From assembly GCA_023823795.1 (NCBI GenBank), contig CP085710.1:3312001-3376000 (forward strand): a stretch of 64,000 bases of DNA, written 5' to 3'. Positions 5,586-62,180 of this stretch are shown here, piece by piece. This DNA comes from Bacillus sp. F19 (GTDB taxonomy: Bacteria > Bacillota > Bacilli > Bacillales > Bacillaceae). Within the stretch, counting starts at the first letter, position 1. Each line of letters starts with the position of its first letter. Both the position numbers and the translations under genes were made by a program. The notes under the pieces were generated by a model. That model was given only the letters and a program-made list of their open reading frames with translations. It was not told the DNA's origin and made no database searches.

Positions 5586-5687
5586 ATGGCAAAAGAAACG
5601 AAAAAGAAACAGCAAAAACAATCTCAGGCACCATCAAAAAATGACCTGGATAAAAAGCTTGGAGGGCCAAACCGTCCTTCGACATAG
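5586..5687 (+). CDS. sspM: Small acid-soluble spore protein M (SspM)
   Basis: This 33-aa protein begins MAKETKKKQQ and ends DKKLGGPNRPST, which agrees with the C-terminus of B. subtilis SspM as I remember it. SspM is a minor spore-core protein made in the forespore under sigma-G. It sits between yppD and yppC, as in B. subtilis. AGGAGGTGG lies 4-5 bases before the ATG. The stop codon TAG is followed at once by the first unit of a 122-bp repeat, and the gene's last bases (GACATAG) match the junction motif found between repeat units. Confidence 0.85.
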   Translation: MAKETKKKQQKQSQAPSKNDLDKKLGGPNRPST

Positions 5688-5955
5688 AAAAGCGGAATCG
5701 CCCGTTTAGCTCAGGCATGACAGATAAGGATCAGCCAGTAAAGGCGCTTTTTGCCTTTGCTGGATGAGCCGTTCTGGCCGAGGAGTTGGGCGATGGAGCT
5801 GGACATAGAAAAGCGGAATCGCCCGTTTAGCTCCGACAGACAGATAAGAATTCACACGAAAAGTCCGGGTTTGAATTTCCTGAGGGAATTTGTTCTGGCC
5901 GAGGGGCTGGGAGGTAAAGCTGGACAATGTATAACAGCGGAACTGACTGTCTAAC
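5681..5955 (+). repeat. 122-bp structured repeat family, locus A: two tandem units and a stub
   Basis: Unit A1 spans about 5681-5806 and A2 about 5807-5926, and a truncated third start runs to 5955. The unit opens AGAAAAGCGGAATCGCCCG, contains GACAGATAAG and GTTCTGGCCGAGG, and closes GGAGCTGGACAT. The A1 central hairpin is CCAGTAAAGGC...GCCTTTGCTGG. The outer arms ATCGCCC and GGGCGAT are also complementary. This repeat fills the whole interval between sspM and yppC. Confidence 0.85.
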
Positions 5956-5975
5956 TAAACTTGCTTAAGAAAAGA

Positions 5976-6003
5976 AAGCAAGGATCGATTAATCCTTACT
6001 TCT
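5976..6003 (-). terminator. Terminator of yppC
   Basis: On the minus strand GTAAGGAT pairs with ATCCTTGC and is followed by TTTCTTTTCTT. It overlaps the final codons of yppC. Confidence 0.55.
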
Positions 6004-6996
6004 TTTTCCTTTATTGTGCATGTATTCTTTTAACAAAGAAAATGCATGCATCTGATTTTGCTTGTTTATTAGCCACTCTGTCATGTCGAATTCTTTTGGT
6101 GACGGCAGAGGTCCGTACCATTTTTTCATTGACTGGCCATGAAACCAATTTCTTTCTTTTACGTCTAATTGGTGGGAGATCACCGGATAGGATGTTCTTA
6201 AATAGGGTGTTTCTCTTTTTCTTCCATCATTTAAGTATTTTTCATAATCATATCTGGACCCTGTATGGACTGTCCGTTCTGAATAGTCCATAAACCCCTG
6301 ATAATAATCCGGGTGAAAAAGCAGCCACGATAAAGACCTCCCGAGTTTGATGCGGCTTTTCAGTTTTTTAAAATCATAAACAGAAAAACCGAATAATCTG
6401 CCTTCTATAGTAGGGAAAACGACTGTGCTAAAATGAAAGAAGTCCTGAAATAAAAAAAGAGGTGCATGAAAGACCTTTCTCTTAAAAATAGCTTTTTCAA
6501 TAATCGGCTTCTGAATTAAATGCTGTTCGTTAATAATCAGCGAGGTCATTAAATGTTCTATGTTTTTTTTTCTCCAAAACATCTGCCATTCTCTTTTCAT
6601 AAACGGAGAAACATGGAATTCATCAAGCAAGTGAAAAAGAGGATGACCTTTTTGTTTTGAAATCTCATACAGCATGAGCTGGGGATATGCATCGGAGAAA
6701 ATAAGCCAGTTTGCATCCTCATAAGTCAGAAACAATGCTTTTATCATTTTTTTATTTATCATTTTTTGAAACCAAGTACCTTTTAAATCCGTCATACAGT
6801 AGCCGGCATTTCGTGATACCATGCTTGCTAGAAATGCCCATCTTATTTCAGGATTCCTTTTATAATAGCTGTGGTAGCTTTCAGTTCTCGAAATGTTGTC
6901 GTAATTTTTTTTTAATGTCGTATTCTTTATTAGTGCTATAATATTATTTTCCTCCATTGTTCTTTGATTCGATGGCAAATCTTTATCGCTGTGCAT
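5989..6996 (-). CDS. yppC: YppC-like protein (DUF2515)
   Basis: The 335-aa protein fits YppC by length, position and divergent orientation to recU. It is rich in aromatic and basic residues (FHLLDEFHVSPFMKREWQMFW; LGRSLSWLLFHPDYYQGFMDYS) and has no signal peptide. I know no biochemical function for the family. GAGGTG lies 7 bases before the ATG. It ends with a lysine-rich tail that overlaps its terminator. The divergent interval to recU (6997-7133) should carry promoters for both genes. Confidence 0.75.
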   Translation of the reverse strand: MHSDKDLPSNQRTMEENNIIALIKNTTLKKNYDNISRTESYHSYYKRNPEIRWAFLASMVSRNAGYCMTDLKGTWFQKMINKKMIKALFLTYEDANWLIFSDAYPQLMLYEISKQKGHPLFHLLDEFHVSPFMKREWQMFWRKKNIEHLMTSLIINEQHLIQKPIIEKAIFKRKVFHAPLFLFQDFFHFSTVVFPTIEGRLFGFSVYDFKKLKSRIKLGRSLSWLLFHPDYYQGFMDYSERTVHTGSRYDYEKYLNDGRKRETPYLRTSYPVISHQLDVKERNWFHGQSMKKWYGPLPSPKEFDMTEWLINKQNQMHAFSLLKEYMHNKGKRSKD

Positions 6997-7133
6997 ACGA
7001 TCACCTCACTTCTTATAGACTCTCCTGATTGAGGCTGAAGTACACATAGCGTTAACAAAATCGAAACTTTTTCACCATGTCTTTTTCATTTTTTTTGATA
7101 TGATAGTAGTAGTTTTACCTGAGGAGGGAAGAA

Positions 7134-7730
7134 ATGATTTTTCGTTATCCTAACGGAAAAACGTATAACCCGGGAACTGCTCCGCCTAAACAGCGCCAGC
7201 CGAAAGAAACATACAGCAACAGAGGGATGACGCTTGAGGAAGATTTGAATGAGACAAACCGTTATTATTTAGACAGAGGCATCGCTGTCATCCATAAAAA
7301 GCCTACCCCTGTTCAAATAGTAAATGTTGATTTCCCTAATCGGAGTGCCGCTGTCATCCGCGAAGCTTATTTCAAACAGTCATCTACAACGGACTACAAC
7401 GGTGTTTATAAGGGAAAGTATATTGATTTTGAAGCTAAAGAAACCAGGAGCTCCACTTCTTTTCCGCTTCAAAACTTCCATGAACATCAGATCAGGCATA
7501 TGAAAATGGTGCTTGATCAGGGGGGATTATCTTTTGTCATTCTCTCTGCCTTCCAAACATTTTATCTGATGGAAGCAGCCATCCTTCTTGAATTTTGGGA
7601 GAGAAAAGAAAACGGCGGAAGAAAATCAATCACAAAAAAAGAAATTGAATTAACATCCCACCCCATTCCGCTTGGCTATCAGCCCAGAATTGATTATATT
7701 AAAGTATTGGAAAAACTATATTTTCTCTAA
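7134..7730 (+). CDS. recU: Holliday junction resolvase RecU
   Basis: RecU cuts four-way DNA junctions in recombinational repair and chromosome segregation, using an endonuclease fold with a metal-binding acidic cluster. The 198-aa product shows the N-terminal stalk-type segment, then [21 protein letters not shown], which contains the D...E-x-K catalytic residues at about 85-107. GAGGAGG precedes the ATG. It is followed by ponA after 46 bases, the usual recU-ponA pairing in Bacillus. Confidence 0.95.
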
Positions 7731-7776
7731 TCCTTTAGCGAAGCGGATTTTGTAAAATGAAAGGTTGGAAAAAGTA

Positions 7777-10470
7777 ATGTCAGATCAATATAATAGCCGT
7801 GAAGAACGCAGAAAAGCGTTAGCACAAACAAGTAAAAGCAAAAACAATAAACCGAATAAACCAGAACGGGGCTCTCTCTTTAAACGCATCATGTTCATTT
7901 TAGTTTCCATCTGCCTGATCGGCATGATCGCAGGCGGTGTTACTTTTGCAGTGATTGCTGCAGGGGCTCCGAAGCTTGATGAGAAAAAATTAAAGGATTC
8001 CTACTCTTCAACAATCTATGATAAAGAAGGGAATGAAATTTCAGAAGTAGGAGCCCAAAAACGCACCTATATTTCTTATAATGATATTCCCAAAAAATTA
8101 GAAGAAGCTGTACTTGCGACTGAGGACGCCCGTTTTTACGAGCATAGCGGTGTGGATGTCATCCGTCTCGGCGGTGCTGTTGTAGCCAACATTACACAGG
8201 GTTTCGGCTCACAGGGCGGAAGTACCATCACTCAGCAGGTTATTAAAAATTCCTTTTTCACACATGAGAAAACCATTAAAAGAAAAATACAGGAGCTATG
8301 GCTCGCTATTCAATTAGAGCAAAAGTATTCTAAGCATGAGATTCTCGAAATGTATTTAAACAAAATCTATTACCACCCTCAATACTACGGTGTAGGGAAA
8401 GCTGCAGAAGGATTTTACGGAAAAGAATTAAAGGATCTTGAACTTCATGAAGCAGCGATGCTTGCAGGCATTCCGCAAAGCCCGACGAATTTTGATCCTA
8501 GAAAAAATCCTGAAGCAGCAGAAAAAAGACGAAATATCGTCCTTAACTTAATGGTGAAGCAAGGGTTCGTTACAGAACAAGAAGCAGAAGAAGCTAAGAA
8601 AGTGCCTGTGCAGTCAACGCTCGTTCCAGAGAAGGAAAAATCGAATCCTTACAGCGCGTATGTGGAACAAGTTATTGAAGAAGTGAAAGATAAAACGGAT
8701 ATTGATGTAAGTTCAGCGGGTGCAAAAATCTATACAACGATTGATACAGATGCTCAAAAATATGTAGAAGAATTGCTCAATGGCAGTGAAATCAGCTATC
8801 CAGATGACAACTTCCAGGCCGGTGTTACCCTCATTGATACTGAAACCGGCGAAATCCGCGCAATTGGCGGAGGCCGGAACCAGAATGTCGGAGACTTTAA
8901 CTATGCGATTGACACAAGAAGACAACCAGGTTCAACTATTAAGCCAGTGCTTGATTATGGTCCTGCAATCGAATACTTAAAATGGTCAACGTACGAACAA
9001 ATTAAGGACGAACCTTATTCTTACTCAAATGGAGTCAAAATCAATAACTTTGACAGAAGCTTTAAAGGACAAATGTCCATACGTGATGCACTTGCAGAGT
9101 CCCGTAATATTCCTGCTCTTAAAGCCATGCAGGCGGTAGGACCGGATAAAGCACGTGACTTTGCAGCAGGACTTGGCATCCCGCTGGAAGAGGAAATACC
9201 GGAAGCTTATTCGATAGGCGGATTTGATACTGGTGTCTCCCCTCTTCATATGGCAGGAGCCTTTGCTGCATTCGGAAATAACGGTATTTACACAGAGCCT
9301 CACGCAGTAACAAAAGTTGTTTTAAGCGACGGCACAGAAATAGATCTGTCTCCTGAGCCGGAAACTGCCATGAGCGATTATACAGCTTACATGACAACTG
9401 ATATGATGATCTCTGTTGTAGAAGAAGGTACAGGTACAGCTGCCCGGGTACCTGGTGTTACTGTGGCAGGAAAAACAGGAACAACGAACTTTTCTGAAGA
9501 AGACAAACAAAAATACAACGTACCTTCCGGCGGAGCGAAAGACAGCTGGTTTGTTGGATTTACACCAGAATATTCAGCAGCAGTATGGACTGGATATATG
9601 AAAAACGATGAAAAAATGCACTTAACGAAAACAGATCAGCAGGTTGCAAAAAAAATCTTTAAAGAAGTAATTTCAGAGGTTTCAAGCGGTGAAGAAAAAG
9701 ACTTCAAAAAACCGAATTCCGTCGTTAAAGTAACGGTTGAAAATGGTTCTAACCCGCCGAAGTTAGCAAGCAAATATACTCCTGACAGCAAAAAAATCAG
9801 CGAGTACTTTGTAAAAGGAACAGAACCTACAAAGGTGTCAGAGCATTATAAACGTCTTGCTAAACCATCCGGCTTCAAAGTGGATTATGATCAAACAAGC
9901 AATCAAATTACACTCAGCTGGGACTATAAAGATGAATTAAGAGACGCTGTATCATTTGAAATCAGCCAATCTGTGGACGATAGTCCTTCACAAGTAATCA
10001 ATAAAACAAAAGATACAAGTATGGTTATCCCTAATGCTGTTCCAGGTTCGACTTATAAGTTCCAGGTAACGGCAGTAAGCGATGATGACAACTCTAACCG
10101 CAGTGATTCTGCTGCTGCTGTTTTACAGATTCCTGAAGCTATCATAGAAGAGCCTGTTGAACCAGAGGAGCCTGAAGAAGAACCAGGTGAAGGTGAAGGT
10201 GAAGGTGAAGGTGAACTGCCTCCTGGTGAGGAGCTTCCTGGTGAAGAATTGCCTGGCGAAGGTGAACTGCCTCCTGGCGAAGGTGAACTGCCCCCTGGCG
10301 AAGGTGAACTGCCTCCTGGCGAAGGAGATGCTGGCGGCGGTGAGGACGAAGGACAGCCTGGTGAAGGTGAAACACCTCAAGAACCAAGCACCCCGATCGT
10401 TCCAGTTCCTCCAACAAATCCTCCTGGCAACGGGAATGGTAATGGTGATCCAAACGGCGACAACGGATAA
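7777..10470 (+). CDS. ponA: Class A penicillin-binding protein 1A/1B
   Basis: This is a bifunctional peptidoglycan polymerase and cross-linking enzyme. The 897-aa protein has a basic cytoplasmic tail and a membrane helix at about 38-62. Its glycosyltransferase domain (75-250) has EDARFYEH and QGGSTITQQVIKN. Its transpeptidase domain (340-630) has the active-site serine in RQPGSTIKP, then SRN and AGKTGT. A fibronectin type III-like domain follows (about 690-790), then a Glu/Gly/Pro-rich tail of about 100 residues. I start at the ATG at 7777 rather than an in-frame TTG at 7765, which abuts the GAAAGG site. The tail contains 21-bp coding repeats, so its length may differ between strains. Confidence 0.95.
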   Translation: MSDQYNSREERRKALAQTSKSKNNKPNKPERGSLFKRIMFILVSICLIGMIAGGVTFAVIAAGAPKLDEKKLKDSYSSTIYDKEGNEISEVGAQKRTYISYNDIPKKLEEAVLATEDARFYEHSGVDVIRLGGAVVANITQGFGSQGGSTITQQVIKNSFFTHEKTIKRKIQELWLAIQLEQKYSKHEILEMYLNKIYYHPQYYGVGKAAEGFYGKELKDLELHEAAMLAGIPQSPTNFDPRKNPEAAEKRRNIVLNLMVKQGFVTEQEAEEAKKVPVQSTLVPEKEKSNPYSAYVEQVIEEVKDKTDIDVSSAGAKIYTTIDTDAQKYVEELLNGSEISYPDDNFQAGVTLIDTETGEIRAIGGGRNQNVGDFNYAIDTRRQPGSTIKPVLDYGPAIEYLKWSTYEQIKDEPYSYSNGVKINNFDRSFKGQMSIRDALAESRNIPALKAMQAVGPDKARDFAAGLGIPLEEEIPEAYSIGGFDTGVSPLHMAGAFAAFGNNGIYTEPHAVTKVVLSDGTEIDLSPEPETAMSDYTAYMTTDMMISVVEEGTGTAARVPGVTVAGKTGTTNFSEEDKQKYNVPSGGAKDSWFVGFTPEYSAAVWTGYMKNDEKMHLTKTDQQVAKKIFKEVISEVSSGEEKDFKKPNSVVKVTVENGSNPPKLASKYTPDSKKISEYFVKGTEPTKVSEHYKRLAKPSGFKVDYDQTSNQITLSWDYKDELRDAVSFEISQSVDDSPSQVINKTKDTSMVIPNAVPGSTYKFQVTAVSDDDNSNRSDSAAAVLQIPEAIIEEPVEPEEPEEEPGEGEGEGEGELPPGEELPGEELPGEGELPPGEGELPPGEGELPPGEGDAGGGEDEGQPGEGETPQEPSTPIVPVPPTNPPGNGNGNGDPNGDNG
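10185..10326 (+). repeat. Tandem coding repeats in the ponA tail (6-bp and 21-bp units)
   Basis: A GAAGGT microsatellite (about 10185-10214) encodes Gly-Glu pairs. Three 21-bp units at 10255-10275, 10276-10296 and 10297-10317 each encode GEGELPP and differ by a single base. A fourth unit begins at 10318 and diverges. Confidence 0.85.
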
Positions 10471-10479
10471 TACTTTGAA

Positions 10480-10507
10480 CCCCTCTGCTTAGGCAGAGGG
10501 GATTTTT
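10480..10507 (+). terminator. Terminator of ponA
   Basis: CCCCTCTGC, loop TTAG, GCAGAGGGG, then a T run, starting 10 bases after the stop codon. Confidence 0.9.
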
Positions 10508-10629
10508 GTCTGGTGCGTTTTATTGACAATTTTCTGTTGAGAAAAAATGATTGGTTTCCGCTAATAAATAGTTCTTTTCGAAAATAATAAAAATATCACT
10601 AATTATGTTGATTACATTCCTTTCCAAAA

Positions 10630-10675
10630 AAAATAAAAACGCAAGAATCAATGATGATTCTTGCGTTTATTTTTC
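10630..10675. terminator. Terminator at the 3' end of ypoC
   Basis: AAACGCAAGAATCA (10637-10650) is complementary to 10655-10668, with A-tracts to the left and T-tracts to the right. It serves the leftward ypoC transcript and overlaps its stop codon. Confidence 0.8.
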
Positions 10676-11197
10676 CCTGCTTCTCATTGCCCTATTTTTA
10701 TAATACTGCTTAAGCATTTCTTCAATAAGCTGATTGAGCTGAACAAAAGAATGATACTGTTCCGGTTTTAATAGGACATACATCAGTCTTTCAGACGCAT
10801 TTATTGGCTTCACCGAAAAAGCTGAGAAATCATCAGATTTTATATCAAGATCATTTACGGGGCTTTCATTGCTCCAATGAATCAGGCAGATCAGGATTGA
10901 GATCCCCTTGATCATCTCCGCTTTATCGGCTTTTCTTGCATTTGAAAGGATCCTGCTTTTGATTGACTCCTGAATTGAATGCCATTCATCTATTAGGACG
11001 GGAATACTTAATTCAGGGTTTTTCCATGGATAAAAATCAATGGGCACATTTGCTTTAAAACAAATATCAAAATAAAAAGGATTGCATTTTATGATTTCTT
11101 CCACCGCAGGCGAAGAATTTAAAGGAATAGCGTGTTCATCCCTGCAAAAAAACGGCTCATACATAAAGGCCTCTGGCAAATTAATCAATCGCGGCAT
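10667..11197 (-). CDS. ypoC: YpoC-like protein
   Basis: The 176-aa protein is named from its position directly after nth, which it overlaps by 17 bases, in the dnaD-nth-ypoC order of B. subtilis. It has no signal or membrane segment. It is rich in aromatic residues near the N-terminus (FMYEPFFCRDEHAIPL) and ends in a basic tail. The function is unknown. Confidence 0.7.
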   Translation of the reverse strand: MPRLINLPEAFMYEPFFCRDEHAIPLNSSPAVEEIIKCNPFYFDICFKANVPIDFYPWKNPELSIPVLIDEWHSIQESIKSRILSNARKADKAEMIKGISILICLIHWSNESPVNDLDIKSDDFSAFSVKPINASERLMYVLLKPEQYHSFVQLNQLIEEMLKQYYKNRAMRSREK

Positions 11198-11852
11198 TCC
11201 GCACCGTTCCCTTTTTCATTCTTTTTTGCCCTTCACGGCACATGTGAAGCAACGGACATTCCGTGCATTTAGGAGCCTGTGCTTTACAGTGGTATCTTCC
11301 AAAAAAGATGAGTCGATGATGAGTAAGCGACCATTCTTCTTGCGGCACTTTCCGCATAAGTGTTTTTTCTACTTCCAGCACGGAATCTTTCCATTTGCAT
11401 ATAGCAAGTCTCTTGCTGACTCTTTCTACATGCGTATCAACGGCAATAGCAGGGACTCCAAATGCGACTGAAACAACGACATTTGCTGTTTTGCGGCCTA
11501 CACCGGGAAGCTTTGTCAGCTCGTCTCTGTCTTTTGGCACCACTCCCCCATATTCTTCTAAAAGGAGTGTGCAGAGTTTTTGTATGTTTTTAGCTTTGTT
11601 GCGGTATAAACCAATGGATCTGATATCATTTTGGAGCTCTTCAATGGGTACAGATAAATAATCCTCAGGCGTTTTGTATTTTTCAAAAAGCTGTTTCGTC
11701 ACTTTATTGACCAGGACATCTGTACATTGTGCAGAAAGAGCCACCGCGATGACAAGTTCAAAAGGATTGCTATGATTCAGTTCACAATGTGCATCAGGAA
11801 ACAGCTCCCCCATTGTATCAAGAGCTTCTCTGATTTGTTTCTTATTCAGCAT
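11181..11852 (-). CDS. nth: Endonuclease III (DNA glycosylase/AP lyase)
   Basis: Nth removes oxidised pyrimidines and cleaves the abasic site. The 223-aa product has the helix-hairpin-helix LPGVGRKTANVV with its catalytic lysine, the downstream aspartate in AVDTHVERV, and the four iron-sulfur cysteines in the C-x6-C-x2-C-x5-C pattern (CKAQAPKCTECPLLHMC). It lies between dnaD and ypoC on one strand and is probably cotranscribed with both. Confidence 0.95.
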   Translation of the reverse strand: MLNKKQIREALDTMGELFPDAHCELNHSNPFELVIAVALSAQCTDVLVNKVTKQLFEKYKTPEDYLSVPIEELQNDIRSIGLYRNKAKNIQKLCTLLLEEYGGVVPKDRDELTKLPGVGRKTANVVVSVAFGVPAIAVDTHVERVSKRLAICKWKDSVLEVEKTLMRKVPQEEWSLTHHRLIFFGRYHCKAQAPKCTECPLLHMCREGQKRMKKGTVRNAAID

Positions 11853-11895
11853 GAGATCACCTGTTTAATTATTGTTTGAATACATTCCTTGAATT

Positions 11896-12600
11896 TTAAC
11901 TTTCCAGCCAATTATAAAACGGCACTTTTCGTTTGTATTCTTCATCAGATTGATTTTGCTTCTGAGGCTGGGATTGATGCTGACGGAATCGTTTGCCGTA
12001 ATTTCTTGCCTGATCGATTGTCCGGATCCCATTTTTCTTCCACTCAAATAGAATTCTGTCAATATACCTGAAATTAAGTTTACCCGATATGACCGCCTCT
12101 TTTAAAGCTGCTTTTATGATAATCGGATCATGATAATCCTGATCCATCCAGATCGAAAGTGTCTCAACTTCAAAAGGTGAAAGAGGTCTTCCAAATTCAC
12201 TTTCAAATACAGGATACAAATTTACGTTTTCCTGCTGCTGCTTTTCTTCTGTTTTTTTCTCATCTTTCATCAGCAAAAATTCATATATTTTTCCCCATAG
12301 AGGTTTCAGAGAGTACCGTTCGTATTTGATGGAAGCTTGCTCATACTCCTCGATGTCTAAAAATCCTCTTTGCAGCAAGCTTCTGAGAAGGGATGTACAT
12401 GAAGATACAGATATGGACATGTGACTTGATAATTCACTTGGGGTAGGAAACTGATTTCCATTTTGAAGATGGAGATTTACTTGTAAAAGCAAAACGAGCT
12501 CCTCTTCTTTCATTCCAAATTGATGATAATGCATAATTAATGCTGCAGGAACAGATAAAGACCCCTGCTCTTGCATGTTTACAAAATGTTCCTTATTCAT
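11896..12600 (-). CDS. dnaD: DNA replication initiation/restart protein DnaD
   Basis: DnaD works with DnaA, DnaB and PriA to load the helicase at oriC and at restart sites. The 234-aa product has an N-terminal winged-helix domain (about 1-110, with LLRSLLQRGFLDIEEYE) and the C-terminal DnaD/DnaB-like domain with YIDRILFEWKKNGIRT (about 190-205), followed by a Gln/Lys-rich tail. A GAGGTGAC site precedes the ATG. It is separated from asnS by an array of 122-bp repeats. Confidence 0.95.
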   Translation of the reverse strand: MNKEHFVNMQEQGSLSVPAALIMHYHQFGMKEEELVLLLQVNLHLQNGNQFPTPSELSSHMSISVSSCTSLLRSLLQRGFLDIEEYEQASIKYERYSLKPLWGKIYEFLLMKDEKKTEEKQQQENVNLYPVFESEFGRPLSPFEVETLSIWMDQDYHDPIIIKAALKEAVISGKLNFRYIDRILFEWKKNGIRTIDQARNYGKRFRQHQSQPQKQNQSDEEYKRKVPFYNWLES

Positions 12601-12622
12601 AACGAGTCACCTCACCTAAAAT

Positions 12623-12628
12623 AGTATA
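12623..12628 (-). promoter_or_regulatory. Likely extended -10 promoter for dnaD-nth-ypoC
   Basis: On the minus strand TGTTATACT has an extended -10 form, about 25 bases before the dnaD ATG. No clear -35 is seen. It gives the dnaD group its own promoter downstream of the repeat array. Confidence 0.45.
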
Positions 12629-12671
12629 ACATGTCTCAGCAGAAAAACGGTGATGGACTTTCATTCCAATT

Positions 12672-13064
12672 CGAAAAGCGGAGCCGACTGTTCAGCCCCG
12701 ACAGACAGATAAGAATTCACCCGAAAAGTCCGGGTTTGACTTTTTGGGGGAATTTGTTCTGGCCGAGGGGTTAGGAGGTGGAGCTAGACATCACGAAAAG
12801 CGAAGCCGACTGTTCAGCCCCGACAGACAGATAAGAATTCACCCGAAAAGTCCGGGTTTGACTTTTTGGGGGAATTTGTTCTGGCCGAGGGGTTAGGAGG
12901 TGGAGCTAGACATCACGAAAAGCGGAGCCGACTGTTCAGCCCCGACAGACAGATAAGAATTCACCCGAAAAGTCCGGGTTTGACTTTTTGGGGGAATTTG
13001 TTCTGGCCGAGGGGTTAGGAGGCGGAGCTAGACATCACGAAAAGACGAAGCCGACTGTTCAGCA
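12672..13064 (+). repeat. 122-bp structured repeat family, locus B: three near-identical tandem units
   Basis: Units begin at 12672, 12794 and 12916 with an exact 122-bp period, and a truncated fourth starts at 13038. The copies differ at only a few positions (for example GCGGAG/GCGAAG and GGTGG/GGCGG), so amplification is recent. The central hairpin is ATTCACCCGAAAAGTC, loop CGGGTTT, GACTTTTTGGGGGAAT. Arms AGCCCC/GGGGTT flank it. The array fills the gap between asnS and dnaD and is antisense to both. Confidence 0.9.
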
Positions 13065-13117
13065 CTTAAGTATATAAAAATATGGCAATTTAAACCTGTC
13101 ACCGCGAGTCTATAAAC

Positions 13118-13154
13118 AAAATGTGAGCCTCCTATCAAGGAGACTCACATTTAT
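13118..13154 (-). terminator. Terminator of asnS
   Basis: AAATGTGAGCCTCCT and AGGAGACTCACATTT form a 15-bp stem with one mismatch and a 3-base loop, just after the asnS stop codon. Confidence 0.8.
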
Positions 13155-13156
13155 TA

Positions 13157-21777: not shown

Positions 21778-21907
21778 ATTATACTCATCGTATCCAGCCG
21801 GTTGTTCATCCCTCTGTCCCAGTCCGCATTCCGGATCAAGGCAGAACTTTTATAAAAAATGTAATAAAACTTAGTGCAGGTGCAGTTCCAGCTAAGGATA
21901 CTACCCG
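21778..21907 (-). ncRNA. Structured panB leader, possibly a pan RNA motif
   Basis: Between a likely promoter and the leader terminator lie about 130 bases of GC-richer, hairpin-forming sequence. One stem is CTTAG/CTAAG around GGAACTGCACCTGC. Firmicutes are known to carry a conserved pan RNA motif before pantothenate genes. I assign this one by context and cannot confirm its consensus by eye. A T-box or S-box is unlikely, because no specifier or T-box sequence is evident. Confidence 0.5.
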
Positions 21908-42494: not shown

Positions 42495-42617
42495 AGGAAA
42501 AGCGTAATCGCCCGTTTAGCCCGGGCATGATAGATAAGTCCGGCAGAAAAGTCCGGGTCTGATGACTTTTTTGACGGATTTGTTCTGACTGAGAAGCTGG
42601 GCGATCGTGCTAGACAT
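42495..42617 (+). repeat. 122-bp structured repeat family, locus C: single unit
   Basis: One complete unit lies between hisC and tyrA, antisense to both. Its central hairpin is TCCGGCAGAAAAGTC...GACTTTTTTGACGGA, and the outer arms are ATCGCCC and GGGCGAT. Relative to loci A and B several stem pairs have changed on both arms. Confidence 0.85.
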
Positions 42618-42651
42618 CAAAGTATATCCTTTATATTTCCTATAGTTATAA

Positions 42652-53804: not shown

Positions 53805-53809
53805 GCGGA

Positions 53810-54256: not shown

Positions 54257-54357
54257 CTTAATTTCTCCACCCCGCGATTGTTATGTATGGGCTTTCATGC
54301 CCCATGGAAATCGTATCATTTTTTCACTCTTTTCGCAATCGTATGGTGCGGAGGAAT

Positions 54358-55320
54358 TTAAAATTTTCTTTTTCCAATATATTTTGCAATATTGGATAAG
54401 GCAGATCTTGCTCTATTTTTCGGCAATTGGTTTAAAATGCTGAACCCTTTCTGAAGATACATGTCACTCACTTGGATGGACCGTTCAATTGCATTCGAAG
54501 ATGAGATGACATCGATAATTTCCGCCATTTCCGCTTGGGGCGTATCACTAGTTACCTTGCTGATTTTCTTTTTCAACTCGGGATTTTCCATTGCGTAAAG
54601 CACGGGAAGGGTAATGTTGCCCTGAAGCAAGTCTCCGCCAACTGGCTTTCCAAGCTCTTCTTCTGTAGAGGTAAAATCAAGAATATCATCTGTAATTTGA
54701 AAGGACATTCCTACATAGTAGCCGAAATGAAATAATTTTTTATGTATGGATTCGGGAACACCGCCGGCAATCGCTCCAAGCTGACAGCTGGCAGCAATTA
54801 ATAACGCTGTTTTCCGTTTTATGCGTCTTAAATAAACACGCAGATTCTGGTCAAAATCATACTTGTCTTTTATTTGTTCTATTTCACCAAGCGAAACTTC
54901 AACAATCGTTTTTGAGAGAATCTGATGAGCCGCAATATTTTCTAAAGATGTCATAATCTCAAGAGATCTTGCAAATAAATAATCCCCTGTATACATTGCA
55001 ATGCGGTTATCCCACTTTGCTTTAATTGTCGGTTTCCCGCGTCTGAGCTCGGCATCGTCAATCACATCATCATGCACCAAAGATGCCATATGAATAATTT
55101 CTAGAGCGATGGCCACTTTTTTTACTTTATCGATATCATATTCGCCAAACATGGCAGAAAGCAATACAAAAACAGGGCGGATGCGCTTTCCCCCTGCCTG
55201 AAGAAGGTGAAGCCCTGCCTCGCTTAGCAAAGGCTCTGTTGAGCTTACCGTTTGTTCAAGTTCCTGTTCAATCAGATCAAGATCTGCATTTAAGAACGAA
55301 TACGCCATTTTAAATTTCAT
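54358..55320 (-). CDS. hepT: Heptaprenyl diphosphate synthase, catalytic component II
   Basis: HepT, with HepS, makes the C35 side chain of menaquinone-7. The 320-aa trans-prenyltransferase has both aspartate-rich motifs, SLVHDDVIDDAELRRGKPT (about 75) and QITDDILDFT (about 210), and GGKRIRPVFVLL near residue 45. It ends KYIGKRKF like its B. subtilis counterpart. Its partner hepS is two genes upstream. Confidence 0.97.
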   Translation of the reverse strand: MKFKMAYSFLNADLDLIEQELEQTVSSTEPLLSEAGLHLLQAGGKRIRPVFVLLSAMFGEYDIDKVKKVAIALEIIHMASLVHDDVIDDAELRRGKPTIKAKWDNRIAMYTGDYLFARSLEIMTSLENIAAHQILSKTIVEVSLGEIEQIKDKYDFDQNLRVYLRRIKRKTALLIAASCQLGAIAGGVPESIHKKLFHFGYYVGMSFQITDDILDFTSTEEELGKPVGGDLLQGNITLPVLYAMENPELKKKISKVTSDTPQAEMAEIIDVISSSNAIERSIQVSDMYLQKGFSILNQLPKNRARSALSNIAKYIGKRKF

Positions 55321-55453
55321 TCAATTCACCTAAATACTCGCATTTTTAAAACATGGCTGTTTCATAATATTGTTGTGATTCGTGCTTGAATATGTCCGAA
55401 GTCTTCCATTATGAAGCAGACTTTCAGCATTAATAAACAACAAAACTGCTAAA

Positions 55454-56149
55454 TCATTTACAGCCGAGATGCATTGCAGCTACGCCGCCTGTAAAAGGCT
55501 TCACGTCCACATCTTTAAAGCCTGCATCTTTGAACATTTGTGCAAGCTCCCGCATTCCGGGAAAATCCCTAGCTGATTCCTGCAGCCATGAATATTCATT
55601 ATAGCTTTTAGCAAACAGTTTCCCAAAAACAGGCATCACAAATCGGAAGTAACCATAGTAAAGCTGCTTAAATCCGATCATGGTAGGCTGTGAGGTTTCC
55701 AGGCAGACTACTTTTCCGCCCGGCTTTACAACACGGTGCATTTCCTTAAGCACAGTCATATAGTCAGGAACATTCCGAAGTCCAAAACCAATCGTAACAT
55801 AATCAAACGTGTTATCTTCAAATGGAAGTTCCATGGCATTGCCGTGAATTAATTCAATATTAGAGAAATTTTTTATTTTCTCTCTGCCAATCTTCAGCAT
55901 ATTATTGCTGAAATCAAGGCCAATCGCTCTGCCCTTCTCCCCAACTGCATCAGCCATAGCAATAGTCCAGTCTGCTGTACCGCAGCAAACATCCAGGGCA
56001 ATCGAACCTTGTTTGACATTCATTCGTTTCATTGTTTCCCGGCGCCAGGCAATATGGCGCTGAAAACTGATGACCGAATTCATCTTATCGTAGTTTTTAT
56101 ATATTTTTTCAAATACAGAATGGACTCTTTCTTCTTTCGACTGCTGCAT
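55454..56149 (-). CDS. menG: Demethylmenaquinone methyltransferase
   Basis: This enzyme methylates demethylmenaquinone, the last step of menaquinone synthesis (also named menH or ubiE). The 231-aa SAM-dependent enzyme has the binding loop [16 protein letters not shown] (about 48), [12 protein letters not shown], and the family motifs FGLRNVPD and [14 protein letters not shown]. It lies between hepS and hepT, so three menaquinone genes form one unit. Confidence 0.96.
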
Positions 56150-56150
56150 T

Positions 56151-57044
56151 TCATAAACCTTCTTCCGCGAGCGTAGTATACCTTATATCCTGATTATACT
56201 TGAATGATTGCAATCTTGCTAACAGGACTTTCTGCAGAGAAGACGGCTGCTGAAAACAGTTTTCTAAAAGGTCGGCTGTCTCTTCGAAATAACGGTTGCA
56301 GAACTCTTTTAAATACACGCCGGTAAATTCGATTGTGCCGATATTTTTCTTCTTTTTCTCCAAATTTCTCATGATGGATAAAGATTCTGCGCTGTATCTG
56401 TTTTTCTCAAGCGTCAGCCGTTTGTATGACAGATATTTAGTCGTCAGCTTAGAGAATAAGCCTGCCTGAAAATAGTCAGAAACATGCTGAAAAATAGCTG
56501 TTTCTACTTTTATAATACTTGCAACGAATGAATCAAAATCACTTACAGTCTCTTCGTACAGGCGAATTTTATGTTCGTTAATCTCTTTTATTGCCGTTGC
56601 TAACGTTCGAATCATTCCAATGTCCTGCATTTCTGATAATAACGCGTAATACAGAGCGCTGAAGTAGTCTCCTGCAAGAACAATCAGCTGTCTTTGCATG
56701 AACTCTTCTTGCTTTAAATGAAAGGAAGTGGATACTTCATCATGAGTATCAAGGGCAATTTGCACAAGCATCGCTGTAATTATGTAGTTCTCTTTTTTTT
56801 CAACTGGAAGATCAATCTGATCGAACAAAGCATAGAAGAGGAGCAGTTTATCTTCATCAATAACAGGAGAAGGTATATATTTTGCTAAAAATGGATGAGT
56901 GAGCTTTAAGTGTAACGCGTCTTTTATCTTAGCCATTTGTACATAGATGTCTTGCAAATGAATCACCCTTGTCCCCATGTAAATAGATATTTTTTCGAAA
57001 AAGCCAGCAACAGCAACAAACATTTTCAGCTGAATACTACTCAT
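56151..57044 (-). CDS. hepS: Heptaprenyl diphosphate synthase, component I
   Basis: HepS is the small regulatory partner of HepT. It lacks the aspartate-rich catalytic motifs but sets product length. The 297-aa helical protein has DTHDEVS and [20 protein letters not shown], as expected for the family. Its stop is 2 bases from the menG start, and mtrB lies 27 bases upstream. Confidence 0.9.
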
Positions 57045-57071
57045 TATACCATATCTGCAGAGCTCAGAAAA

Positions 57072-57299
57072 TTATCTTCTGGAGTCGCTTTCTATTTCTC
57101 CGTAGCTTGTTTGAATAATGGCTTTCCCTCTTATCTTAATAGCAGATGTGTGTTCTGTAAATTGGGCAATCATTACCTCGCCTTTATCCAGCTTCTCTGA
57201 ATGATGAAATCTAGTATCCGATCCGCGGGTCAGACCGATGACATTCACTCCATCCTCTACCGCTTTTATCACTAAAAAATCATTTGTGTTGTCTTTCAT
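57072..57299 (-). CDS. mtrB: Trp RNA-binding attenuation protein (TRAP)
   Basis: TRAP forms an 11-subunit ring that binds tryptophan and then wraps trp leader RNA. The 75-aa protein has the typical core [35 protein letters not shown] and [18 protein letters not shown], with the RNA-contacting lysine and arginine residues. It sits between folE and hepS as in B. subtilis. Its target, the triplet array before trpE, lies at 49885-49976. Confidence 0.97.
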
Positions 57300-57317
57300 A
57301 TGTTCACCCCCGAACCC

Positions 57318-57884
57318 TTATTCTTTAATAAATGATAATACTTCAGCTCTGGCTGCAGGATCTTTCACAAAAACCCCTCTGACAGCGGATGTGATCGTTT
57401 TGCTTCCCGGCTTTTTGACTCCGCGCATTGTCATGCACATATGTTCAGCTTCTACAACCACCATTACGCCATGAGGTTCTAGAGAATCAACAATGCTCTC
57501 TGCAATCGTCGAGGTAATTCTCTCTTGAAGCTGAGGTCTTCTGCAAACTGCTTCCACAGCTCTGGCAAGCTTGCTCAGCCCTGTTACTTTTCCGCCTTTT
57601 GGTATGTATGCAATGTGAGCCTTTCCAAAAAACGGAACCAGGTGATGCTCACACATAGAATGAAATGGAATATCCTTGACTAGCACAAGTTCTTCATGGT
57701 CTTCTCCGAACACCGTTTTAAAATGTTCTTTTGGATCTTCGTTAAGTCCTGAGAATACTTCGGCATACATTTTAGCAACACGTTTGGGAGTATCAAGAAG
57801 CCCTTCGCGATTTGGATCTTCCCCGATCGCCTCAAGTATGAGCCTTACTGCCTCTTCGATCTGCTGTGTATTAATTTGCCCCAT
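57318..57884 (-). CDS. folE: GTP cyclohydrolase I
   Basis: FolE makes dihydroneopterin triphosphate from GTP for folate (mtrA in B. subtilis). The 188-aa enzyme has [10 protein letters not shown], the zinc ligands in [18 protein letters not shown] and the downstream [12 protein letters not shown] start at 57884, where TAGGAGGA lies 7 bases upstream; the frame is open further but has no site. It is the first gene of folE-mtrB-hepS-menG-hepT. Confidence 0.96.
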
Positions 57885-57919
57885 AAATATCCTCCTAAAA
57901 AACAATATATTTGATACAG

Positions 57920-57949
57920 ATTCTAGCATATGTAAGAGATTAAAAGCAA
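57920..57949 (-). promoter_or_regulatory. Promoter of folE-mtrB
   Basis: On the minus strand TTGCTT, 18-base spacer, TAGAAT with an extended TGC before it, about 35 bases upstream of the folE ATG. Confidence 0.6.
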
Positions 57950-58021
57950 AGAATGATGTATCTTGTGAAGTTTATAAGAGAGAGGATGTCAGGCTCATAT
58001 CTGCAATTTGTGCCAGAACAA

Positions 58022-58048
58022 AGGAAAAGCCCCTATAAAAGGGGCTAT
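58022..58048 (-). terminator. Terminator of hbs
   Basis: AGCCCCTTTTATAGGGGCT hairpin followed by TTTTCCTTT on the minus strand. Confidence 0.75.
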
Positions 58049-58100
58049 CCATGGCATCATTGTGTATGTAATTTATGCATCATACACGGGTAAGAGCACA

Positions 58101-58379
58101 TTATTTTCCAGCAACAGCGTCTTTAAGAGCTTTACCTGGTTTGAACGCAGGCACTTTGCTTGCTGCGATTTCGATTTCTTCGCCAGTTTGTGGGTTGCGT
58201 CCTTTACGTGCCGCGCGCTCACGTACTTCGAAGTTACCAAAACCGATCAATTGTACTTTATCACCGTTTTTAAGTGCATCCAAAAGTGTATCGAAAACAG
58301 CATCAACAGCTTTCGTTGCATCTTTTTTTGATAATTCGCTAGCTTCTGCTACCGCGTTGATTAGTTCTGTTTTATTCAT
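58101..58379 (-). CDS. hbs: DNA-binding protein HU
   Basis: HU is the main nucleoid protein and bends DNA without sequence preference. The 92-aa product begins [21 protein letters not shown] and has the family signature [22 protein letters not shown] with the arm prolines. I start at 58379, where GGGAGGAGGTG lies a few bases upstream; the longer open frame runs into the leader. A consensus promoter lies about 120 bases upstream. Confidence 0.97.
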
Positions 58380-58499
58380 GCCTTTCACCTCCTCCCAAAG
58401 ATTGATTGTTAAGCAATAAAAGCATTCTGTTATTTTCATTTCTTCACAGATTATGCAGAATCTATACATGATAGATAAGCATTTACTGTTAACACGCTA

Positions 58500-58528
58500 A
58501 TCTTATACGATTAACGGCTATAATTCAA
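58500..58528 (-). promoter_or_regulatory. Promoter of hbs
   Basis: On the minus strand TTGAAT, 17-base spacer, TAAGAT, giving a leader of about 115 bases. Confidence 0.6.
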
Positions 58529-58855
58529 TGATTTTCCGCATGAATATTGGGTTTCTAGGAAGAATCGACCAATACAGAAAATAATTTCTGATAGTAGATT
58601 AACATATCCTTTTTCGCTAAGCAAGGAGAAACCTTTATAAAACCTATATAAATCAATAATTGAAGGTGATTTCAGCGAACGTGCATTCCCACCTGGAACT
58701 TATTTCACAAAAAAATAGTAGAAGAGGTAAATATTATTTTGGAATATGTAAAACTTATTAAAAACACTAATACATATTGAGAAAGAAGTAAACATTAATT
58801 TTATTAAAATAAAATTTTGTAAGCTAATTGTCATCGAAATGAAAACTATTTTTAA
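58529..58855. other. AT-rich gap between the hbs promoter and the spoIVA terminator
   Basis: About 330 bases of AT-rich sequence. A 62-codon open frame here (58700-58888) is isoleucine/phenylalanine-rich, has no ribosome site and overlaps the spoIVA terminator. I see no supported gene or RNA. Upstream hbs promoters may lie here. Confidence 0.5.
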
Positions 58856-58890
58856 AGACAAAAAGATGACCACTTTTTTTGTGGTCATCT
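58856..58890 (-). terminator. Terminator of spoIVA
   Basis: AGATGACCAC and GTGGTCATCT form a 10-bp stem with a 7-base loop, followed by TTTTTG on the minus strand. Confidence 0.85.
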
Positions 58891-58905
58891 GTTCTTTTTC
58901 CTATT

Positions 58906-60384
58906 CTATAGGATAATCGCGATTAAACCGCCAGAGCCTTCGTTAATCATGCGTTCGAGCGTTTCTTTCAGCTTATATCTTGCATTTTCAGGCATTAATG
59001 AAAGTTTTGCCTGAATTCCTTCCCTCACGATTGAACTCAGACTGCGTCCGAAAATATCGGAATTCCAGATCGACAGCGGGTTATCTTCAAAATCCTGCAT
59101 CAAGTATCGAACCAGTTCTTCACTTTGTTTTTCTGTTCCGATAATTGGAGCAAATTCTGACTCCACATCAACTTTTATCATATGAATCGATGGGGCCACA
59201 GCTTTTAACCGGACTCCGAATCTTGCACCCTGCCTGATAATTTCCGGTTCATCAAGGCTCATGTCGCTGAGTGCAGGCGCTGCAATGCCATAGCCTGTTT
59301 GTTTTACCATTCTAAGCGCATCCGATACTTGATCATATTCCGCTTTTGCATATGCAAAGTCCTGCATAAGCTGCAGCAAGTGATCTTTCCCGCGGATTTC
59401 TACTCCAACAACCTCTTTTAAAATTTGATCATATAAATCATCAGGCGCATACAGGTCAATTTCAGCGATCCCCTGCCCCATTTCAATGCCTGCAAGGCTT
59501 GCCCGGTCAATGAAGTCATATTCACTGAAATAACCTACCACACGATCAACATCTCTTAGCCTTTTGATATCCTGGACCGTGTCTTTGACTGCTTCCTGAT
59601 AGCTTTCCCGCAGCCAGTGATTGTCGCGTAGAACCATTACCCAGCTAGGCAGATTCACATTTACCTCAAGCACCGGGAACTCATACAGCGCTTCACGGAG
59701 AACGTTCATGACATCTGTCTCGCGGATACTTTCAACACTCATCGCAAGGACCGGAATGTCATATTTTTCACTGAGCTGTCTCCGGAGTGTTTCTGTTTCA
59801 GGATGATAAGGCTGAACCGTATTAATAATCATAATGAAAGGTTTTCCGACTTCCTTTAATTCCTCGATAACCCGTTCTTCAGCTTCAATGTAATCCCTTC
59901 TTGGGATTTCGCCAATTGAACCGTCTGTCGTAATGACGACACCGATAGTTGAATGCTCCTGAATCACCTTGCGGGTGCCGATTTCAGCCGCTTCATGGAA
60001 AGGAATCGGCTCCTCATACCACGGAGTATTGATCATTCTTGGTCCATTTTCGTCTTCATACCCTTTTGCTCCAGGTACTGTATAACCAACGCAATCTACC
60101 AATCTAATATTGACGTCAAGTCCCTCTTCAACATGGATCGAAACCGCTTGATTCGGAACAAATTTAGGCTCTGTCGTCATGATGGTTTTTCCAGCAGCAC
60201 TTTGCGGCAGCTCATCCTGTGCCCGTGCCTTATCTGCTTCATTATCAATATTCGGAAGCACGACTTGCTCCATGAACTTTTTGATAAAAGTAGATTTGCC
60301 TGTTCTTACTGCTCCCACTACTCCAAGATAGATATCGCCGCCGGTGCGCTCTGCGATATCTTTAAAAATATCTACCTTTTCCAA
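58906..60384 (-). CDS. spoIVA: Spore coat morphogenetic ATPase SpoIVA
   Basis: SpoIVA polymerises on the forespore surface using ATP and forms the base layer of the spore coat. The 492-aa product is very close to B. subtilis SpoIVA, with Walker A GVVGAVRTGKSTFIKKF (about 21-37), RLVDCVGYTVPGAKGYEDENG, and the conserved C-terminus GGLIAIIL. Translation appears to start at TTG, with GGGAGGGGATCAC at good spacing. A sigma-E-like promoter is seen about 70 bases upstream, which fits mother-cell expression. Confidence 0.97.
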   Translation of the reverse strand: MEKVDIFKDIAERTGGDIYLGVVGAVRTGKSTFIKKFMEQVVLPNIDNEADKARAQDELPQSAAGKTIMTTEPKFVPNQAVSIHVEEGLDVNIRLVDCVGYTVPGAKGYEDENGPRMINTPWYEEPIPFHEAAEIGTRKVIQEHSTIGVVITTDGSIGEIPRRDYIEAEERVIEELKEVGKPFIMIINTVQPYHPETETLRRQLSEKYDIPVLAMSVESIRETDVMNVLREALYEFPVLEVNVNLPSWVMVLRDNHWLRESYQEAVKDTVQDIKRLRDVDRVVGYFSEYDFIDRASLAGIEMGQGIAEIDLYAPDDLYDQILKEVVGVEIRGKDHLLQLMQDFAYAKAEYDQVSDALRMVKQTGYGIAAPALSDMSLDEPEIIRQGARFGVRLKAVAPSIHMIKVDVESEFAPIIGTEKQSEELVRYLMQDFEDNPLSIWNSDIFGRSLSSIVREGIQAKLSLMPENARYKLKETLERMINEGSGGLIAIIL

Positions 60385-60454
60385 GTGATCCCCTCCCGAT
60401 CATAGGCTTCTTGGGTTATTGACCGTCTGCTTCTTCGTGTTTTAGGACACTATA

Positions 60455-60484
60455 TATTTATGACGTTGTCCTATTTATTTATGA
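60455..60484 (-). promoter_or_regulatory. Sigma-E-like promoter of spoIVA
   Basis: On the minus strand TCATAAA, 15-base spacer, CATAAATA, near the sigma-E consensus. The decamer GTCATAAATA occurs twice, 21 bases apart, covering both elements. Confidence 0.55.
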
Positions 60485-60537
60485 CAGTGATCTGAAATTT
60501 TTTTCATTTCATTTTTCTTATATGATTGTAAAAAATG

Positions 60538-60578
60538 AAAAACCCTTCTTTCAGAGTTTATTTCTCTTAAGAAGGGTT
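60538..60578 (-). terminator. Terminator of yphF
   Basis: AACCCTTCTT and AAGAAGGGTT form the stem, with an inner AGAG/CTCT pair and T residues on the minus strand. Confidence 0.8.
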
Positions 60579-60584
60579 CATGAC

Positions 60585-61307
60585 TTATTTATCTAAAAAG
60601 ACAGGTTCATTTTTTTCATTGACTGTATAAGGCAATGAAAATGCAGGTACAAACGGAGAATCCTCAACCAAAAGATTGCGTATGTCTTCACCTTTTGCGG
60701 CTGTATTTTTCTTTTCGCTTAATACTTTGTACAAATCAATGCGGTAATCAACGTATACTTCCCCGGTATTATCAATGACAAAAGGCAGTGTTTCGCCGGA
60801 ATAAGGGCTTACAGCATGAGGAGCTTCCTCATAGCCAAGCTTCTTGTAGTCTAGGGTAAACACGTTTTCAGCTACAACCTCTTTATAAGGCGGATAGCCG
60901 CCGTTCGATGCTTTATACACATTTAACCTCGTTTTTAGATCACGTATTGCTTCTGAGATTCTGAGGTCAATCAGTTTTACCGTTGGGTTTTCCTCAACAT
61001 CAACAAGCACATACAAATAAACTCCGCCGCTTTCATAGGATGTTCCAGGCGGTTCAGCCATGTATTTCGGCACAAGCTTGGCGAAATCAACCGGGTATTT
61101 CTGATAAATAGGCGTTTTCATATCTCTTGTTTTAATCGGAAGCAGCCCACCGGAATCTTCTTTAAACCGGTCAACCGTGTTTTGAACTCCTGCAATCTGA
61201 TCTTCATAGGGAACCTGATTCTGGCTTAGCTCCTGATCAGGATACAAGCAGCCTGAGAGCAGTGTCATTATTAAAAAAACAGGTAACAAAGAAGCAAGCT
61301 TTTTCAT
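60585..61307 (-). CDS. yphF: YphF-like lipoprotein
   Basis: The 240-aa protein has a lipoprotein signal, LLPVFLIMTLLSGC, with the lipidated cysteine at about residue 20, and a soluble domain facing outward. Two similar-looking halves (YPVDFAKLVPKYM and FTLDYKKLGYEEAPHAVSPYSGE) suggest an internal duplication. The function is unknown. It follows yphE, between spoIVA and gpsA. Confidence 0.8.
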   Translation of the reverse strand: MKKLASLLPVFLIMTLLSGCLYPDQELSQNQVPYEDQIAGVQNTVDRFKEDSGGLLPIKTRDMKTPIYQKYPVDFAKLVPKYMAEPPGTSYESGGVYLYVLVDVEENPTVKLIDLRISEAIRDLKTRLNVYKASNGGYPPYKEVVAENVFTLDYKKLGYEEAPHAVSPYSGETLPFVIDNTGEVYVDYRIDLYKVLSEKKNTAAKGEDIRNLLVEDSPFVPAFSLPYTVNEKNEPVFLDK

Positions 61308-61334
61308 GAAAATCTTCCTTTATAGTGAAGTTCT

Positions 61335-61535
61335 TTATTCATTAACAGGCCCGCTGAAAACAACGAAAATAATCAACAATCCTGCCAGAATCATAAAAAA
61401 ATAGGCAATTGCGGCAAAAGCAATCTTTAAAAACCCTTTCATTTTAAATCTGCTGAAATAGATTGATATAATCGCAACAAACATAAACCCCATTGAAGCG
61501 AGAGCAATCCACATCTTCATCAACCCTGGACTCAT
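61335..61535 (-). CDS. yphE: YphE-like small membrane protein (DUF2768)
   Basis: The 66-aa protein has two membrane helices (about 7-26 and 36-60) joined by a short basic loop FSRFKMKG. GGGGAGGT lies 6 bases before the ATG. Size and position fit YphE. The family is restricted to spore-formers in my recollection, but its role is unknown. Confidence 0.75.
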   Translation of the reverse strand: MSPGLMKMWIALASMGFMFVAIISIYFSRFKMKGFLKIAFAAIAYFFMILAGLLIIFVVFSGPVNE

Positions 61536-61574
61536 TACCTTACCTCCCCTTATTATCCGAAAAATATTATATCA

Positions 61575-62180
61575 CAAGAAATGCGGAATCGCCTGTTTAC
61601 TTAGAAAAGCAGAACCGACTGCTTAGCTCCGACAGACAGATAAGGAGCAGACTGGAAAGTCCGGGTTTGACTTTTCAGGCTGATCCGTTCTGGCCGAGGA
61701 GTTAGGAGGTGGAGCTGGACAATATGAACAGTGGAGCAAACAGTTTGACTCAGACAGACAGATAAGGAGCAGACTGGAAAGTCCGGGTTTGACTTTTCAG
61801 GCTGATCCGTTCTGGCCGAGGAGTTAGGAGGTGGAGCTGGACAATATGAACAGTGGAGCAAACAGTTCGACTCAGACAGACAGATAAGGATCCGACAGAA
61901 AAGTCCGGGTTTGACTTTTCAGGCTGATCCGTTCTGGCCGAGGAGCTGGGCGATGGAGCTGGACATCAAGAAATGCGGAATCGCCTGTTTACTTAGAAAA
62001 GCGGAACCGACTGCTTAGCTCCGACAGACAGATAAGGAGCAGACTGGAAAGTCTGGGTTTGACTTTTCAGGCTGATCCGTTCTGGCAGAGGAGTTAGGAG
62101 GTGGAGCTGGACAATATGAACAGTGGAGCAAACAGTTCGACTCAGACAGACAGATAAGGATCCGACAGAAAAGTCCGGGT
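61575..62180 (+). repeat. 122-bp structured repeat family, locus E: largest tandem array
   Basis: The GACAGACAGAT landmark recurs at 61631, 61753, 61875, 62023 and 62145, spacings of 122, 122, 148 and 122. The 148 step holds an extra stub opening AAGAAATGCGGAATCGCC, also seen at the array start, so a block of units has been duplicated. The fifth unit is cut after AAGTCCGGGT at 62180. The central hairpin in the first unit is CAGACTGGAAAGTC, CGGGTTT, GACTTTTCAGGCTG. The array is antisense to yphE and gpsA. Confidence 0.9.

Follow-up and report, generated by a model that had tools for sequence, protein, structure and literature searches.

The 64,000-nucleotide stretch analysed here (the window) is positions 3312001-3376000 of the 5,085,462-bp chromosome (C1) of Bacillus sp. 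F19, whose second contig, C2, has 507,307 bp. The window carries, at five places, copies of a dispersed, hairpin-forming repeat of about 122 bp, and a first-pass annotation made from the DNA letters alone had assigned these copies to one family with compensatory changes in its stems. An nhmmer profile and repeat finding recover all of these places as a single repeat family with a period of 122 bp. We find that the fold of this repeat is conserved on one DNA strand, and that the orientation of this strand follows the direction of replication.

Copies, branches, and distribution of the repeat

Within the window, all features described below lie on the plus strand unless stated otherwise. Array A consists of a unit with a class I hairpin (5687..5807) and a unit with a class II hairpin (5808..5927), both placed by nhmmer and alignment, with a trailing partial head at 5928..5956 (a weak nhmmer match, E 2.5). 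As read by eye, its first unit starts at the TAG that terminates a small plus-strand open reading frame (ORF). Array B has 3 units (12673..12794, 12795..12916, and 12917..13038; nhmmer and repeat finding) and a trailing partial head, read from the sequence, at 13039..13065. Array E opens with a short leading head piece of 26 nt (61578..61603; sequence and nhmmer), followed by units 1 to 3 (61604..61725, 61726..61847, and 61848..61969), a second short head piece of 26 nt (61970..61995; sequence), unit 4 (61996..62117), and a truncated unit 5 (62118..62194) that nhmmer matches over model positions 1-77; units 1 to 4 are recovered by both nhmmer and repeat finding. Solo copy C (42497..42620) was located with nhmmer, and 2 related genomes, G002 and G006, carry the same insertion. 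These genomes also hold a full copy where the window has the minus-strand segment 39992..40045, which is therefore the remnant of a solo copy that is missing its middle and is without the central hairpin.

The family has 2 branches. Copies of the solo (S) branch resemble miniature inverted-repeat transposable elements (MITEs): their start runs ...TTAATAAGAAAAGCG and their end is ATGCGCAAAATTTTATACTTTCTTAT, which would give them short inverted ends. Among 20 copies picked by their tail pattern, the consensus ends are ATAAGAAA and TTTCTTAT, and 36 of the 63 S loci match when the tail pattern is relaxed; the branch looks like an old MITE with ends ATAAGAAA...TTTCTTAT. The tandem (T) branch is without the S tail. 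A T locus comprises a fixed head (GAAAAGCGGA...) and 0-7 units of ~122 bp, often followed by a partial next head of variable length, such that the 5' end is fixed and the 3' end variable. This trailing-head pattern was found at 25 of the 49 T loci of the host genome, 30 of which have a single unit and 19 have 2-7 units, and heads alone (n = 0) occur in relatives. The unit foot is GAAAAGCG, and the tail-head junction GGAGCTGGACA...GAAAAGCG is conserved. In a related genus (genomes G008 and G022) the ends and the tandem layout, with a period of 122-123 bp, are unchanged, and there are 2 alternative inner modules. T heads also contain AAGCGG, a putative hexamer of Escherichia coli primosome assembly sites, although the papers listed for this link were found to be without it.

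The first-pass annotation had envisaged a covariance-model search of this genome and other Bacillaceae. The model, now available for the family, was built from 30 units, and its search of the host genome is represented by the best 150 of 1954 candidates. The host genome holds at least 150 matches, all of them on C1 among the matches listed. C2 has no copy among these best 150 of 1954 candidates, and the chance of this under random placement is ~6e-7 when computed from copies or 6e-5 when computed from loci. Among the 150 best matches, the region of C1 at ~2.03-2.70 Mb (~0.67 Mb around the presumed terminus) is also free of copies. One model search gave matches in 32 of 41 genomes, and a family-wide search in 40 of 81 Bacillaceae genomes: the repeat is carried by all 37 genomes of 5 genera, and by 3 of 44 genomes of a sixth genus, with one match each. 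For the host genome itself, the nearest asnS neighbours, in a list that may omit its own record, have 84-87% protein identity and include species of Cytobacillus, Robertmurraya, Litchfieldia, Anoxybacillus, and Bacillus.

Window positions 12673-12916, used as query, had no match at E 1e-5 among 50,697 phage and 72,556 plasmid records, and an origin in phages or plasmids was rejected on this basis. A gathering-level Rfam scan of the window and 2 other stretches of the host genome left the repeats unmatched; the only matches were the pan motif (RF01749), at window positions 21810-21907 on the minus strand, and an L31 leader, both away from the repeats. For the stretches scanned, no match to a named family was obtained for the repeat, which the first reading had likewise left without a published name. 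Judged by titles and abstract openings, the literature on bcr1 and on replication-oriented or dispersed Bacillus repeats was also not found to describe it. As far as searched, this structured dispersed bacterial repeat family has apparently not been described before.

Conserved fold and orientation to replication

Structure alignments were made of 48 T units (from 61) and 31 S units (from 44), each with a structure of 34 pairs; 89.4% of cells are paired in T units and 89.1% in S units. Changes on both sides are found in 14 of the 34 pairs in T units, compared with a mean of 9.9 in shuffles (3 of 500 shuffles reach 14), and in 15 of 34 pairs in S units, compared with 6.6. Double-change cells number 140 vs 49 in shuffles for T units (at most 32 with a slid structure) and 51 vs 17 for S units (at most 18), although these shuffle counts are not readable as probabilities because the sequences are related. 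The new alignments thus confirm the compensatory changes that were originally seen in a handful of copies. As a correction to the arms described at that time, one class has an outer arm, CCGACT/AGGAGG, with tandem G.A/A.G instead of plain Watson-Crick pairs. Specifically, the outer arm of T units is G-C/C-G in 17, tandem G.A/A.G in 22, mixed G.A/C-G in 3, and of other types in 6. Pairing is kept through compensatory change, including this coordinated switch between G-C/C-G and tandem G.A/A.G. The class of the T head is associated with that of the outer hairpin (P = 0.001) and shows no linkage with the class of the loop-closing stem, i.e. the stem between the 2 arms (P = 0.38), so matched outer arms persist despite the shuffling of modules.

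On the strand as written, G.T outnumbers A.C in both branches (104 vs 21 in T units, 88 vs 27 in S units). DNA folding energies, computed for up to 2 units per locus and excluding units <100 nt, are lower on this strand in 61 of 61 T units and 42 of 49 S units at loci that conform to the orientation rule described below, and the as-written strand also folds better in 12 of 12 nonconforming units. The same holds for 24 of 24 units from another genus, chosen from 30 fetched loci. Covariation, the G.T/A.C asymmetry, and the outer arms that stay matched despite shuffling together support selection on the folded strand.

Three features go beyond the first reading of this DNA, i.e. the 2 branches, the turnover of units, and, as the strongest, orientation relative to replication. 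C1 starts at dnaA (C1:1). For most of the stretches sampled, GC skew and gene strand on one arm are the reverse of those on the other; their change of sign falls between the 2.30 Mb and the 2.70 Mb stretch, and a further stretch, at 2.91 Mb, is mixed. The terminus was set at the strand switch (~2.35 Mb in the host genome, 2.145 in G002, and 2.0 in G003), the origins of G002, G003, G008, and G022 were taken unchecked, and genes were called by a simple ORF scorer. Class and flank counts for the host genome use the 112 loci that score 50 or higher with nhmmer and cover 80 or more model positions, which excludes the weaker of 186 copies drawn from stretches fetched around earlier search matches. 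For the congeners G002 and G003, orientation counts use all 135 and 122 model matches, respectively, merged into loci, and score-class lists use only matches of at least 60 bits (89/135 and 89/122).

The as-written strand opposes the local leading direction at 100 of 112 loci in the host genome, 101 of 115 in G002, and 77 of 95 in G003. By score class, 35/39, 28/31, and 38/43 loci conform in the host genome; G003 is the weakest case, with 14 of 19 conforming among its 100-120 bit loci (P = 0.07). Arrays of at least 2 units conform at 19/19 loci in the host genome, 16/16 in G002, and 15/17 in G003, and single loci at 81/93, 85/99, and 62/78, respectively. Taken together, 50 of 52 arrays conform vs 228 of 270 single loci (P = 0.026, with host and congener loci defined slightly differently). 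The same rule is followed by 24 of 31 loci in the genus of G008 and G022 (P = 0.008; the count was made by eye, and the data themselves set the strand switch).

Genes are co-oriented with replication in 80.5% of our ORF calls, and the repeats run opposite. Loci flanked by 2 leading-strand genes are antisense to both in 50 of 54 cases, and loci flanked by 2 lagging-strand genes are sense to both in 4 of 4 (P = 0.00016, with only 4 lagging loci); other thresholds give 49/53 antisense and 5/5 sense. Because the repeat is antisense between leading-strand genes and sense between lagging-strand genes, the second group being small, its orientation tracks replication and not transcription, and we reject orientation as a side effect of gene orientation on the same contrast and its 4 lagging loci. 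Replication geometry would make the as-written, better-folding strand of a conforming copy the template of the leading strand and, when newly synthesised, the lagging strand. The Bacillus subtilis SRS and the Chi motif AGCGG were rejected as candidates: heads do carry AGCGG, on the strand opposite the gene-rich one.

Turnover of units and placement beside genes

Sixteen of 113 host loci could be compared, by both flanks, with the fetched relatives, one of these loci (3942300) ambiguously. Locus B holds 3 class II units in the host genome and in G006 (98% identical nearby), a single class I unit in G002 (95%), and nothing but the head in G001 and G007 (91%), i.e. unit number is 0, 1, or 3 between common flanks. 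Locus A has 2 units in the host genome, one in G002, and only the head in G006; similarly, host locus 3497962 has one unit where G006 has only a head of ~17 nt. At 4 loci, units are 71-80% identical vs 95-97% for the flanks, which are an unclean control for divergence because they include coding sequence; units at other loci are 95-98% identical. Solo copies stay in place, and several diverge beyond their flanks (82-96% alike). Both the number and the type of units thus change at fixed loci, with arrays gaining, losing, and swapping units among close relatives. None of the 16 comparable loci showed an insertion that is wholly absent from a 95-98% identical relative (G002, G006).

Most copies are intergenic. 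Of the 37 host loci with a sense gene upstream, 26 have a head that lies at most 6 nt beyond the stop codon of this gene, and 2 of the 26 reach into the ORF, by 11 and 23 nt. When heads were placed at random in the same gaps, the mean over 1000 draws was 2.3 and the maximum 7. As such, some copies begin a 3' untranslated region (UTR). The head often supplies TAA or TAG, or directly follows one. This placement possibly reflects the survival of insertions or deletions that end at the coding end.

Known repeats and candidate mechanisms

The new repeat resembles Streptococcus BOX elements, whose stable stem-loops are built from modules that recur within the element; compared by description, it differs in that its whole 122-bp unit is tandem and replication-oriented. 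Integron attC sites are long imperfect hairpins with conserved ends and a variable middle that act as single-stranded DNA (ssDNA), and the new arrays differ from them, again by description, in having no gene cassettes between units. Like REP, BIME, and REPIN, the family consists of intergenic palindromic repeats that occur in clusters and fold as a single strand. In the excerpted source, REP hairpins measure 21-65 nt and have a canonical GT[AG]G foot and a cognate Y1 transposase (PMC6006769), whereas the new repeat has 122-bp units, the foot GAAAAGCG, and a host genome without Y1_Tnp. The bcr1-bcr3 repeats of the Bacillus cereus group are likewise intergenic and MITE-like. According to excerpts of the relevant papers, bcr1 copies lie mostly on the chromosome and number 39 on average, with a maximum of 130 (PMC6542083, PMC3446304), and one catalogue places bcr1 among stem-loop families whose structure is conserved (PMC2267715). 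The same excerpts report bcr1-bcr3 only in the B. cereus group and tie them to TTTAT motifs, which sets them apart by description, and the tandem arrays and replication orientation of the new repeat were not found in these partial descriptions. Stem-loop families of Bacillus anthracis, Bacillus halodurans, and others have also been catalogued (PMC2267715), and are known here by excerpted description only.

Repeats scattered through bacterial genomes are usually attributed to a transposase or to a role as RNA. In the present family, it is one DNA strand that keeps its fold, and neither of the 2 candidate enzyme families tested is common to all carriers. Our tentative preference is for an old, non-autonomous, hairpin-forming repeat family, oriented by replication, that may be kept and reshuffled by slippage and recombination through folded ssDNA. 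We infer that slippage occurs at the fork and that recombination is ectopic. The stronger-folding strand would be the nascent lagging strand, where hairpins would favour slippage that adds or keeps units; in the opposite orientation, the stronger hairpin would lie on the lagging template and favour unit loss, and recombination among the many copies would swap units. Arrays would then survive only where the nascent lagging strand carries the stronger hairpin, a prediction that agrees with the stricter orientation of arrays than of single loci. In the excerpted text of PMC3310812, CTG/CAG repeats tend to expand when the strong hairpin former is in the nascent lagging strand and to contract when it is in the lagging template. 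A comparable dependence of gain and loss on replication polarity would apply to the new repeat, which differs from CTG/CAG in its 122-bp units, ~100 dispersed loci, and covariation.

Several observations weigh against this account. Slippage alone is insufficient to explain orientation, because the bias extends to the non-expanding solo copies (54/63), and the value for T loci (46/49) is not significantly different (P = 0.22). In addition, 2 arrays of G003 are in the opposite orientation, and 7 of 31 loci in the genus of G008 and G022 do not conform. Wrong-way copies fold no less well than others (P = 0.93), and weaker hairpins were accordingly rejected as the cause of the exceptions. Finally, some yeast CTG/CAG assays show the opposite polarity (cited in the excerpt of PMC3310812).

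Orientation could instead record insertion, if the repeat were a mobile element entering as ssDNA at the fork by means of an IS200/IS605- or REP-like Y1, or another fork-directed, transposase. Strong orientation bias, a folded strand, mostly intergenic copies, and T loci with fixed 5' and variable 3' ends would all be expected of such an element, and IS608 and ISDra2 do target the lagging strand template (PMC6006769, in excerpt). We nonetheless regard this origin as rather unlikely. Y1_Tnp, the only fork-directed transposase domain searched for, has no match in the host genome and is present in only 2 of the 8 genus genomes (absent from 6, host included), the better-folding strand is the complement of the lagging template, and copies are missing from C2 among the 150 matches listed and from the phage and plasmid collections. 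T loci inspected by eye also have no consistent target-site duplication, with a 9-nt direct repeat at 57788 only, and S loci yielded no clean empty site. The copying of a mobile element, proposed in the first-pass annotation together with a look at TnpA/REP-type genes, is not shown: no insertion at the 16 comparable loci is wholly absent from a relative of 95-98% identity, and Y1_Tnp and RVT_1 are not found in all congeners. RVT_1 is absent from G001, G003, G004, and G005 and present in 4 of 8 genus genomes, and G001 and G005 are without both domains; a Y1/IS200 element and a retroelement were each rejected as neither domain is common to all carriers. Alternatively, the units could be ssDNA cassettes of a dedicated recombination or fork system, in which a host factor would recognise, on the nascent lagging strand, the folded unit and its junction GGAGCTGGACA...GAAAAGCG, and would insert, remove, or swap units at loci marked by a head throughout the chromosome; we consider this unlikely. 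A chromosomal site maintained by selection for use in replication or repair (re-priming, restart, or strand choice) would account for the orientation bias in 2 genera, for the failure to find a match off the chromosome, and for the identical 122-123 bp layout and ends in another genus despite a different inner module, and AAGCGG in T heads would point the same way. Rapid change in copy number and unit content, and near-absence from one genus of the family (3/44), make such a site distinctly unlikely.

Selection could also act on an RNA element, such as a UTR structure, a small RNA, or an attenuator. Covariation is expected in this case, and the heads lying just past stop codons (26/37) place some copies at the start of a 3' UTR, but the repeat is antisense to both neighbours at 50 of the 54 loci with a leading-strand gene on each side, and no Rfam family matched it in the stretches scanned. 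An RNA leader or small RNA was rejected on these 2 observations, and we see an RNA element in general as improbable. Of the RNA or ssDNA selection suggested at first pass, selection on a folded strand is thus supported, and the antisense placement favours ssDNA at the fork over RNA. Target-primed reverse transcription, with the head primed from the nascent lagging 3' end and truncation producing the variable tail, would explain a fixed 5' and a variable 3' end, and would make the as-written strand both the cDNA and the nascent lagging strand. It is highly improbable given that RVT_1 is missing from half of the genus genomes, 2 of which have no Y1_Tnp either, and that the best fold is on the cDNA strand and not on the RNA. 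Whatever maintains them, the repeats offer a natural multi-locus test bed for the behaviour of folded ssDNA at bacterial forks.

Other repeats lie near these loci. AT-rich short repeats (TTTATTAGCCGATTTT / CAGCCGTTTTC) follow several of them, at 62180-62400 in the window and near 357.9k, 690.4k, 889.7k, and 3883.5k elsewhere in the host genome, and a second repeat, GGTTCTGCTAAGTGCGCGGCGTCCTGCCGCAA, directly follows the trailing heads at several loci of G008 and G022, L227 among them. At window positions 10201-10370, 21-bp coding tandem repeats are found near the 3' end of an ORF of 901 aa, which is, from gene order, a probable ponA homologue.

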